A DNA stretch of 39,023 bases, taken from positions 1 to 39,023 of the forward strand of contig JAHFFJ010000005.1 of the NCBI GenBank assembly GCA_023248035.1. Direction: 5' to 3'. The translations under genes and the position numbers were made by a program. The notes below the pieces were generated by a model, which made no database searches, was not told the DNA's origin, and saw only the letters and a program-made list of their open reading frames with translations. The stretch is from Microcaldota archaeon (GTDB taxonomy: Archaea; Micrarchaeota; Micrarchaeia; Anstonellales; Bilamarchaeaceae). Of the stretch, positions 4,139-16,320 are shown piece by piece. Position 1 is the first letter of the stretch. Each line of letters opens with the position of its first letter.

Positions 4139-4819
4139 TTATGGGAGAAGAGCTACCTCTTTTCTAACATAGACATTTTCTTCACCTTCCAAAAGACGGG
4201 GAGAGCTAGAAATGTCAAAAGAACAATTATGGAATCTAAAGAACTTTTCAAAATCTGGAGGAAACCCTCTTCCAGCAACGTTGAAATTTTGGAGAGTAAC
4301 CATTGTAACAGTATAATGTTGTGCAATTTCAAAAAGATATTGTAAAAGCCTTACTCTCCATCCGCCATAGATTCTTGCTTTATCATCATCTAATTCAGGA
4401 GGACTACCTATCTTGAAACAGCCCTGAATATAGTAGAGATAGAGATTAGTTTTGTGGGAAATCGTTTGATTTTTAGTAGATTTAACTGGTTTTGATAAAA
4501 GAACACAGGATGAAGTCCCCACAGATCCAGGGAATGAATCGGCAGGCCCGCCATCTCGTAAAGATTCAGAACTACGTGTAAATAGCTCTAAATCTTCTAA
4601 TTTAGGGTAGTATAAAAGCCTAAATGGGTTTTCTCTTCCTGAAAATGCTTCTTTAGCTAGAACGATTAAACCAGACCCTCTTTGACCTATTGGATTTAGA
4701 ACAAAACTTTGGGAGAACATTGGGGGCTTATAAAGAACAGGCTCACCTGAAGCCAGTTTTCCCACCATGGTTCTTATTGCTTGGATATTAGGCAATTTTG
4801 GAGGAGACGTAGTCAACAT
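4139..4819 (-). CDS. Unknown protein, paralogue of the next gene (copy A)
   Basis: A 226-residue protein. It shares with the neighbouring 225-residue gene the blocks GSGLIVLA, YPxLEDxExFxRSSESL, FPGxVG, IQGCFxIGSPP, ARIYGGWxxRLxxxxFEIA and RGFPxDFEK, in the same order over their whole length, so the two arose by tandem duplication. No signal peptide or membrane helix is visible. The ARIYGGW-xxRL...FEIA region followed by RGFPxDFEK has the alternation of helix and strand expected of a small alpha/beta enzyme domain, but I do not recognise the family. The start at 4819 is supported by a minus-strand TTTTTAAATAT centred about 27 bases upstream. No partner gene suggests a role. Confidence 0.8.
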   Translation of the reverse strand: MLTTSPPKLPNIQAIRTMVGKLASGEPVLYKPPMFSQSFVLNPIGQRGSGLIVLAKEAFSGRENPFRLLYYPKLEDLELFTRSSESLRDGGPADSFPGSVGTSSCVLLSKPVKSTKNQTISHKTNLYLYYIQGCFKIGSPPELDDDKARIYGGWRVRLLQYLFEIAQHYTVTMVTLQNFNVAGRGFPPDFEKFFRFHNCSFDISSSPRLLEGEENVYVRKEVALLP

Positions 4820-4860: not shown

Positions 4861-5538
4861 TTAATCCTCAATAAGTGCTACTTCAGTTCTAGTAAATATA
4901 TTTTTATCTGGTATTTGATGGATATCGCCAAATATGGAAAAAGAATAGCCCATTTCACTGCTAATTTTCTCGAAATCTGCTGGAAACCCCCTAATACCAA
5001 TATTAGAATTATAAAAAACGACCAAATGTATATCGCTTTCTTTTGCAATTTCAAAAATACATTCGATAAGTCTTCTTTTCCATCCACCATAAATTCGTGC
5101 CCTATTAGGCTCTACCGCGGGAGGACTACCAATTCTGAAACAACCTTGGATAAAATTAATATTTAAATGAGGATTTAGGTAAACATCAGATCTCCCCTTA
5201 AGAGATGGAATCGAAGATCCACATATATCGAAGGGAGTGTAGGATAAAACACCAACCGCACCAGGAAATAAACTCGATGGACTCTGAGGCGTTAAAGATT
5301 CTGAACTTCTTGAAAAAATTTCAATATCTTCTAATTCAGGGTAGCAGATTAGCCGTGGACTTGGAGTGTTAGCTAAATTAAACGAGTAGCCTTGTGCTAA
5401 AACAATTAACCCACTACCACTTGCACTTCGTGCCTTCATTTTGAAAGTTGAACTGCCAGCTTCGTAAAGAATTTCTTTTCCAGACCATAGATCACGAGTT
5501 TTTTCTTTGAAGGCGCCAAATGTTTTTTGAATTTGCAT
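4861..5538 (-). CDS. Unknown protein, paralogue of the previous gene (copy B)
   Basis: A 225-residue protein, the upstream member of the tandem pair on the minus strand. It carries GSGLIVLA, CYPELEDIEIFSRSSESL, FPGAVGVLS, FIQGCFRIGSPP, RARIYGGWKRRLIECIFEIA and RGFPADFEK, matching copy A block by block, while the N-terminal 40 residues and the region after FPGxVG differ. The invariant blocks are probably the functional core; the spacing between them is nearly constant. The two genes are separated by 41 bases and each has its own TATA element, so they are probably transcribed separately rather than as an operon. Function not recognised. Confidence 0.8.
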   Translation of the reverse strand: MQIQKTFGAFKEKTRDLWSGKEILYEAGSSTFKMKARSASGSGLIVLAQGYSFNLANTPSPRLICYPELEDIEIFSRSSESLTPQSPSSLFPGAVGVLSYTPFDICGSSIPSLKGRSDVYLNPHLNINFIQGCFRIGSPPAVEPNRARIYGGWKRRLIECIFEIAKESDIHLVVFYNSNIGIRGFPADFEKISSEMGYSFSIFGDIHQIPDKNIFTRTEVALIED

Positions 5539-5571: not shown

Positions 5572-5588
5572 GATTACTAATCGTAGAT

Positions 5589-5599
5589 TAAGAAAAAGA
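5589..5599 (-). terminator. Oligo-T terminator of the tRNA-Val gene
   Basis: Directly after the discriminator base the minus strand reads TCTTTTTCTTA. A T5 run of this kind is a typical archaeal transcription stop. Confidence 0.6.
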
Positions 5600-5613
5600 T
5601 GGGCCCACGCGGG

Positions 5614-5667
5614 TTTTCGTATCTTTTTAGCACGCCCTTTTTTGGGCGCTTTTTACTAAAAAGCACA
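5614..5667 (-). other. tRNA-Val intron 3, T-loop position 59/60, 54 nt
   Basis: BHB fit: exon TTCG (5673-5670) pairs with intron CGAA (5619-5616) as the 4-bp central helix. The 5' bulge is A T^T with the cut after 5668, and the 3' bulge is A A^C with the cut before 5613. The outer helix is the T-stem CGCGG/CCGCG. Inside, CTTTTTAG pairs with CTAAAAAG, with a CGCCC/GGGCG hairpin in the middle. Position 59/60 is a known non-canonical archaeal intron site. Confidence 0.88.
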
Positions 5668-5689
5668 ATCGAACCGCGAATCTCTACCA

Positions 5690-5903
5690 TTCCGAGCTTT
5701 TGGAAAAAGCTCGACCAAAACTGATTTGCTAATTTTTGTTTTGTTTCATTCGCTCGCCTTTGAGGCTCGCATAAAACGTTACAAAAATGGTTTACAGCGG
5801 TCAGCGAATTTTCCAGCAGGAAAATTAAACTGACCAAAACCAAAAACCCGAAATGGGTTTTTAAACAACCAGTTTTTGGTCAAACTTTTTTTCCAAAAAA
5901 GTT
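5690..5903 (-). other. tRNA-Val intron 2, anticodon position 37/38, 214 nt
   Basis: BHB fit: exon TTGA (5909-5906) pairs with intron TCGG (5695-5692, two G-U pairs). The 5' bulge is C A^A with the cut after 5904, and the 3' bulge is A A^T with the cut before 5689. The outer helix is the anticodon stem CTACC/GGTAG, and the inner helix is CTTTT..GG against CC..AAAAG. This is the canonical intron position, but 214 nt is long for an archaeal tRNA intron without an ORF; none of its frames looks coding. It holds several short hairpins, one at each end. Confidence 0.88.
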
Positions 5904-5925
5904 TGTCAAGGTAGCGTCTTAACCA

Positions 5926-6058
5926 CTGTCGTTTCAAATTTATAATCCGAGATAGTTCTCAGGTTAAAAAGTTGAATCAAAAACCAGTCAGCATCAAAAC
6001 CGAGTTTACGGTTTTGCAAACAGTCAGTTTTTGCCGCGCTTTTTCCTAAAAAGCGCGA
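5926..6058 (-). other. tRNA-Val intron 1, D-loop, about 133 nt
   Basis: Placed by pairing GTCG (6064-6061) with CGAC (5931-5928) as central helix, giving bulges AA^T and AG^T and a D-loop AATGGTTA. The ends may be shifted by one base with the same intron length (D-loop AGTGGTTA). The outer helix is weak here, so this would be a relaxed BHB. The intron begins with a perfect 10-bp hairpin (arms CGCGCTTTTT / AAAAAGCGCG, loop AGG on the sense strand). Presence of an intron is certain from the tRNA halves; the exact ends are less so. Confidence 0.75.
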
Positions 6059-6097
6059 TTCGACTATGGGCCCAATAATTGGATAGTGTTCACAATG

Positions 6098-6107
6098 AAT
6101 TTTAAAC
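6098..6107 (-). promoter_or_regulatory. TATA element of the tRNA-Val gene
   Basis: Minus strand AGTTTAAAATTC-type element centred about 30 bases before the first tRNA base (6073), the usual archaeal spacing. It overlaps the 3' end region of the small gene upstream. Confidence 0.55.
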
Positions 6108-15978: not shown

Positions 15979-16047
15979 TCGTTTGATGGGCAGAAGAGAA
16001 TAAAACCCGAAGGGGCGCGATTTTATACCTTGGCTGCGATTATTTGA

Positions 16048-16078
16048 GTGATGATGACCAAGGTGATCACTGAGTCAC
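16048..16078 (+). ncRNA. Possible minimal C/D-like RNA element
   Basis: Stem GTGAT (16048-16052) / GTCAC (16074-16078) encloses GATGA (16053-16057), exactly 12 nt (16058-16069), and CTGA (16070-16073). This is the box arrangement and 12-nt guide spacing of an archaeal C/D sRNA half. TTTTATA (16021-16027) lies about 25 bases before the stem. It lacks a second box pair and overlaps the alternative stem ACCTTGG/CCAAGGT, so it may be chance. Confidence 0.25.
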
Positions 16079-16173
16079 GCCCTAAGCTTGTGCCCTTCTA
16101 GTTTGTCAAAATTAGTTGGGCCAGGGGAAACCCGGCCACGGTTAATGACGATGACGATTGACGTGCGGTCTGA

Positions 16174-16198
16174 CCAACTTTTTTAGGAAAAAAGTTGG
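16174..16198. repeat. Perfect hairpin related to those in the tRNA-Val introns
   Basis: Arms CCAACTTTTTT (16174-16184) and AAAAAAGTTGG (16188-16198) with loop AGG. In arm length and core (T5-6, AGG, A5-6) it resembles the hairpins of introns 1 and 2 of the tRNA-Val gene. GACCAAAAACT also recurs nearby (16234-16244) as in intron 2. Confidence 0.8.
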
Positions 16199-16290
16199 AC
16201 AAAAAACTAACTGTAATTTTAGGAAAAAGGTTTGACCAAAAACTAGGTATAAAAGGTCATGCAAAAGTTCAGTTAAAACTCCGAAGCAAA

Positions 16291-16320
16291 ATGCACCTTA
16301 TGAATACTCTTCAGGTGCAT
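16291..16320. repeat. 8-bp inverted repeat ATGCACCT/AGGTGCAT
   Basis: ATGCACCT (16291-16298) and AGGTGCAT (16313-16320) with a 14-base loop, just before the operator region of the Fic gene. It could be a terminator-like hairpin or a protein-binding site. Confidence 0.6.

Follow-up and report, generated by a model that had tools for sequence, protein, structure and literature searches.

A micrarchaeal tRNA-Val(GAC) gene with three putative bulge-helix-bulge introns in a genome of densely interrupted tRNA genes

The tRNA-Val(GAC) locus

The window (the whole stretch of DNA that was analysed, 39,023 nt) lies on contig C67 of a draft genome of 1.17 Mb in 83 contigs that is about 90% complete. The aIF5B of this genome was 66–78% identical to those of named records, which all belong to Micrarchaeota and include LFW-283_2, the type of Ca. 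Bilamarchaeum dharawalense (PMC8561730). On the minus strand, positions 5600–6073 contain a tRNA-Val(GAC) gene comprising four exons (15, 22, 22, and 14 nt) and three introns (133, 214, and 54 nt), with the introns making up 401 nt of the 474-nt gene (85%). The spliced tRNA, GGGCCCATAGTCGAATGGTTAAGACGCTACCTTGACATGGTAGAGATTCGCGGTTCGATCCCGCGTGGGCCCA, is 73 nt long, and its acceptor (7 bp), anticodon (5 bp), and T (5 bp) stems are perfectly paired. Two adjoining, apparently paralogous ORFs of ~225 aa lie beside the gene on the same strand (4139–4819 and 4861–5538), and neither had a match in Pfam.

Table 1 Features of the tRNA-Val(GAC) gene and its flanks, in the direction of transcription (window positions).
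Feature	Positions	Strand	Description and basis
TATA-box-like element TTTAAAAT	6099..6106	-	Candidate promoter element; start 33 nt upstream of the tRNA 5' end; read from sequence
Exon 1 GGGCCCATAGTCGAA	6059..6073	-	Acceptor 5' half, D-stem 5' half, start of D-loop; spliced alignment, 73/73 vs G002 and G005
Intron 1, 133 nt	5926..6058	-	D-loop (about 15/16); BHB helix GTCG:CGAC, bulges AA|T and AG|T
Exon 2 TGGTTAAGACGCTACCTTGACA	5904..5925	-	Remaining D-arm, anticodon stem 5' half, anticodon GAC up to A37; spliced alignment
Intron 2, 214 nt	5690..5903	-	37/38; BHB helix TTGA:TCGG (two G-U), bulges CA|A and AA|T
Exon 3 TGGTAGAGATTCGCGGTTCGAT	5668..5689	-	Anticodon stem 3' half, variable loop, T-stem 5' half, T-loop to 59; spliced alignment
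Intron 3, 54 nt	5614..5667	-	59/60; BHB helix TTCG:CGAA, bulges AT|T and AA|C
Exon 4 CCCGCGTGGGCCCA	5600..5613	-	Position 60, T-stem 3' half, acceptor 3' half, discriminator A73; no encoded CCA; spliced alignment
T-rich run TCTTTTTCTT	5590..5599	-	Terminator-like; immediately 3' of the gene; read from sequence

Exons and introns were delimited by spliced alignment with congener tRNAs as references. The exons were identical at 73/73 positions to the tRNA-Val(GAC) of congener G002, where the gene is uninterrupted; in congener G005 it has one 28-nt D-loop intron, and the spliced product was again 73/73 identical. This identity fixed the junctions to within about a base, and the remaining shifts were settled by the bulge-helix-bulge (BHB) rule described below, the refined boundary ending exon 1 at ...GTCGAA (6059) and placing the D-loop intron at 6058–5926. 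The alignment score of the gene was 0.73 per base, versus a maximum of 0.16 in 60 shuffles, and the rest of the window scored no higher than 0.18. The unspliced gene gave no match with ARAGORN or Rfam and is overlapped by a false 88-aa ORF (5577–5843); ARAGORN identified the spliced product as tRNA-Val(gac). A preliminary description of this DNA had given the same coordinates, strand, and length, ~401 nt of intron (85%), and intron sites in the D-loop, at 37/38, and at 59/60 with one intron of 214 nt, all in agreement with the spliced alignment. Its reading of the product as a 73-nt tRNA-Val(GAC) with three perfect stems was borne out by the congener identity and by ARAGORN.

Splicing signals, splicing enzymes and gene function

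In the archaeal BHB, a 4-bp helix forms between the end of the upstream exon and the 3' end of the intron, both stopping two bases before the cut. BHB structures had been described earlier for two of the three introns; the structures stood but the count did not, as all three introns fit this geometry. The central helices of introns 1 and 3 are fully Watson–Crick, that of intron 2 has two G-U pairs, and the terminal hairpins of intron 2 can also pair mutually in the predicted fold. Genome-wide, with machine-placed boundaries before hand curation, a four-pair central helix was present in 34 of 61 introns, versus 5.6 expected and a maximum of 14 in 500 permutations of the intron ends.

The genome encodes an RtcB ligase and a 391-aa endonuclease whose residues 4–391 align with residues 5–387 of the ARMAN-2 epsilon2 enzyme (PDB 4fz2, E 1e-129). 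A GTYK motif is kept in this alignment and appears to represent the loop residues Y160/K161 (PMC12397907). The genome resembles ARMAN-1 and ARMAN-2 (PMC4033280, PMC12397907), the latter also a micrarchaeon, in having a three-unit endonuclease with a specificity loop and introns at various positions. Broad specificity is a feature of epsilon2 enzymes, and diverse introns tend to occur in lineages with specificity loops of this kind (PMC12397907); the 391-aa endonuclease, for which broad specificity is predicted, fits the diverse intron load of this genome. Few-intron congeners share the enzyme family, so that epsilon2 permits the load and does not explain it. A second, small splicing-endonuclease-like protein of 113 aa, truncated by the contig end (contig C5, L005 1–342), seemingly lacks the usual catalytic histidine when inspected by eye. 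Such a small paralogue was rejected as the cause of the high intron load, since it is present in nearly all congeners whatever their load.

Exon conservation, BHB geometry, the endonuclease and ligase genes, and the lack of a detected intact copy are direct observations, beside which we infer that the introns are spliced. Very probably, this sole detected tRNA-Val(GAC) gene would give rise to a single precursor transcript in which all three introns are of BHB type and connected to a repeat family. At each intron, its 3' end and the last bases of the preceding exon would pair into a 4-bp central helix flanked by 3-nt bulges, the epsilon2-type endonuclease would cut within the bulges, and RtcB would ligate the exons into the 73-nt tRNA, which would then fold. 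The excised introns would presumably be circular.

An intact tRNA-Val(GAC) elsewhere, with the present gene untranscribed, had been named in the preliminary description as a sign that this copy is decayed. No second or intact copy was found in the ~90%-complete assembly, and the three tRNAs detected with Rfam in the genome include none for Val; one may lie in the missing ~10% of the draft. The Val 5' exon occurs at three genome sites, with anticodons GAC, TAC, and CAC, all of them interrupted. Of the 503 Val codons counted in 16 large ORFs of the window, 273 are GTT or GTC, and tRNA-Val(GAC), as the expected reader of over half of the Val codons, is therefore needed. The exons are fully identical to those of G002 even though the neighbouring gene product, aIF5B, shares only 70% identity with its counterpart in the record matched to G002.

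A decayed, non-functional gene split by insertion elements is very unlikely, given the exons identical to those of congeners and the failure to find an intact copy in the assembly. Like insertion elements, the repeat family of these introns has terminal inverted repeats and is not confined to tRNA genes, but the introns are inserted exactly where splicing restores the tRNA and have BHB geometry. Moreover, nearly every tRNA gene found is similarly interrupted, and no cell could live with this unless the introns were spliced out. From exon conservation, the lack of a detected intact copy, codon use, and the flanking signals, we conclude that the tRNA-Val(GAC) gene works, with splicing as predicted.

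Interrupted tRNA genes across the genome

Within this genome, the tRNA-Val(GAC) gene is no exception: introns are present in 30 of the 31 tRNA genes recovered by spliced alignment against congener tRNAs. With the Rfam tRNA model, only three genes scored above the cut-off, versus 6 to 36 in congeners. The inventory was taken from stretches around search matches and is thus incomplete, covering 31 of perhaps 45 tRNA genes; parts of further tRNAs are present, such as a tRNA-Ala 3' end on contig C78. The 61 introns placed automatically comprise 6448 bases, versus 2323 exon bases in the 31 genes. For tRNA-Leu(TAA), Leu(CAG), and Phe, the automatic boundaries had to be corrected by hand with the BHB rule, and each of these genes gained one intron, for a total of about 64. 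One gene, Leu(GAG), has no intron, five have one, seventeen have two, seven have three, and one has four, with intron lengths of 21–239 nt.

ARAGORN recognised all 31 spliced products as tRNAs, compared with two of the unspliced genes, or 11 with its intron option, and assigned a defined amino acid to 29 of the 31. The undefined cases, His and Leu(CAG), are attributed to boundary errors; tRNA-His and the Leu(CAG) anticodon intron required a further boundary shift, which was set by eye. For tRNA-Trp, a generic sequence served as the reference, and those for Cys and elongator-Met were built from this genome, so that identity to these three references is no evidence.

The tRNA-Leu(TAA) gene (contig C82, L050 1125–1562) apparently has four introns, in the D-loop (84 nt), anticodon loop (94 nt), variable arm (42 nt), and T-loop (132 nt), with a full BHB helix in three of them and three pairs in the remaining one. 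In the tRNA-Phe(GAA) gene (contig C62, L043 1408–1576, minus strand), the introns at 30/31 and 37/38, both of BHB type, are separated by an exon of 7 nt, GCTGAAG.

The published maximum is three introns per archaeal tRNA gene, and the most in any assessed genome is 71 in 46 genes (PMC8450103). Three-intron genes are known in Thermoproteales, for example Pyrobaculum calidifontis tRNA-Glu(UUC) and P. islandicum tRNA-Pro(UGG) (PMC4390854, PMC8450103). As in Thermoproteales, multiple BHB introns occur here within single tRNA genes and related introns occupy different positions. Unlike there, the host belongs to Micrarchaeota, introns reach 239 nt, the endonuclease is of epsilon2 type, one gene apparently has four introns, and the same family is found in 23S rRNA; the count is about 64 introns in 31 recovered genes, against 71 in 46 for P. 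calidifontis. The preliminary description was right about three introns in this gene, but its statement that such genes are known mainly from Thermoproteales no longer holds, since Asgard archaea also have them (PMC11291895). The accessible text of that study reports that 92–95% of tRNA genes are interrupted in wetland Asgards (Atabeyarchaeia and Freyarchaeia), with 228 introns in three genomes, and, as here, over half of the genes are multi-intron, often at non-canonical positions. Those archaea belong to another phylum, and intron homology and rRNA spread, seen here, are not described in that text (PMC11291895). A literature search that reached few subscription papers found no report of such introns in the present lineage and no archaeal tRNA gene with four introns.

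Precedents thus exist for three-intron tRNAs and transposed tRNA introns (Thermoproteales) and for dense introns (Asgards). What appears to be novel is how long and how dense the introns of this lineage are, their spread to rRNA, and the tRNA gene with apparently four of them. Under standard annotation, which would give about three tRNAs, the genome would be judged incomplete or translation-deficient, when its tRNAs are hidden and not missing. Grading DPANN genomes by tRNA counts may therefore mislead.

The intron family and its distribution

All three introns of tRNA-Val(GAC) have relatives in the same genome. Intron 1 has a homologue in the D-loop intron of tRNA-Val(CAC), intron 3 shares 96% identity with the tRNA-Val(TAC) T-loop intron, and intron 2 is a member of a large repeat family with long terminal inverted repeats. 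A single cluster takes in 49 of the 61 introns at E 1e-4, 34 at 1e-8, and 15 at 1e-15, and five sets of shuffled introns gave no links. Links at E 1e-15 connect D-loop, anticodon, and T-loop introns in every combination. For example, Val(GAC) intron 2 is 85.6% identical to the Arg(TCG) T-loop intron over 209 nt, and the Gln T-loop intron is 90.6% identical to the Glu anticodon intron over 212 nt.

The family also extends to the 23S rRNA, where a 188-nt intron (contig C81, L123 about 671–858) has the BHB helix AAGC:GCTT and is 90% identical to intron 2 of tRNA-Val(GAC) over 122 nt. The 23S rRNA gene is split over contigs, perhaps because of the repeats of this family, and a second related insertion was seen in another 23S piece (contig C17, L128 about 230–300). 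BHB introns in rRNA are known in archaea, e.g., in Thermoproteales 16S (PMC4496867); the rRNA intron here differs in sharing homology with tRNA introns from its own genome, and its 188 nt leave no room for a homing-endonuclease gene. Group I introns are known from rRNA genes of Micrarchaeota (PMC6125680), but that the present introns are self-splicing group I or group II elements is extremely improbable in view of the BHB geometry at their ends, their lengths of 21–239 nt, and the lack of any Rfam catalytic-core match in the window.

Related introns at differing positions in Thermoproteales were read as transposition by Fujishima et al. 2010, as summarised in PMC4033280 and PMC4090602, and related introns across genes and positions point to movement between genes here too. 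Alternatively, the gene may be functional with old introns, their likeness stemming from gene conversion and the intron-poor congeners having lost theirs, with no transposition. A D-loop intron is present in the tRNA-Val of several congeners, suggesting that some introns may be ancestral, and the number of Rfam-detectable tRNAs varies from 6 to 36 per congener. We consider such an origin unlikely, however, because unrelated tRNAs carry similar introns at differing positions, as does 23S rRNA, and these sites lack the flanking homology that gene conversion requires, and because the long family members have strong full-length matches in this genome only.

The homology across positions and genes being observed, we infer that the introns spread by transposition between structured-RNA genes within the genus. 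The BHB intron family probably acts as a mobile element in one micrarchaeotal lineage, occupying nearly all tRNA genes (D-loop, anticodon, and T-loop) and 23S rRNA with up to four introns per gene, a load that the broad-specificity epsilon2 enzyme would make tolerable. We know of no established mechanism for archaeal tRNA intron gain. A genus with zero, one, or three introns in an exon-identical tRNA-Val(GAC), together with a recognisable intron family, makes intron gain testable, and directly so through the few- or no-intron congeners if the family is indeed mobile.

Copies or fragments of the family are also located between genes. Within the window, a copy lies between a Rad50-like and a Fic-like gene (16170–16310), where no tRNA was found, and a C/D-box-RNA-like stretch is nearby (16047–16083; Rfam E 0.5, sub-threshold). 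The 3'-end motif of the family, GGTCCCGCTTTTTCCAAAAGCGGGGAAT, immediately precedes the 5' end of tRNA-His and is not part of the tRNA body (contig C80, L002 about 1440–1500). On contig C78 (L125), a family fragment at 688–732 is positioned about 230 nt downstream of an RNase P RNA gene at 145–460, which scored 70 bits in Rfam against a cut-off of 84.
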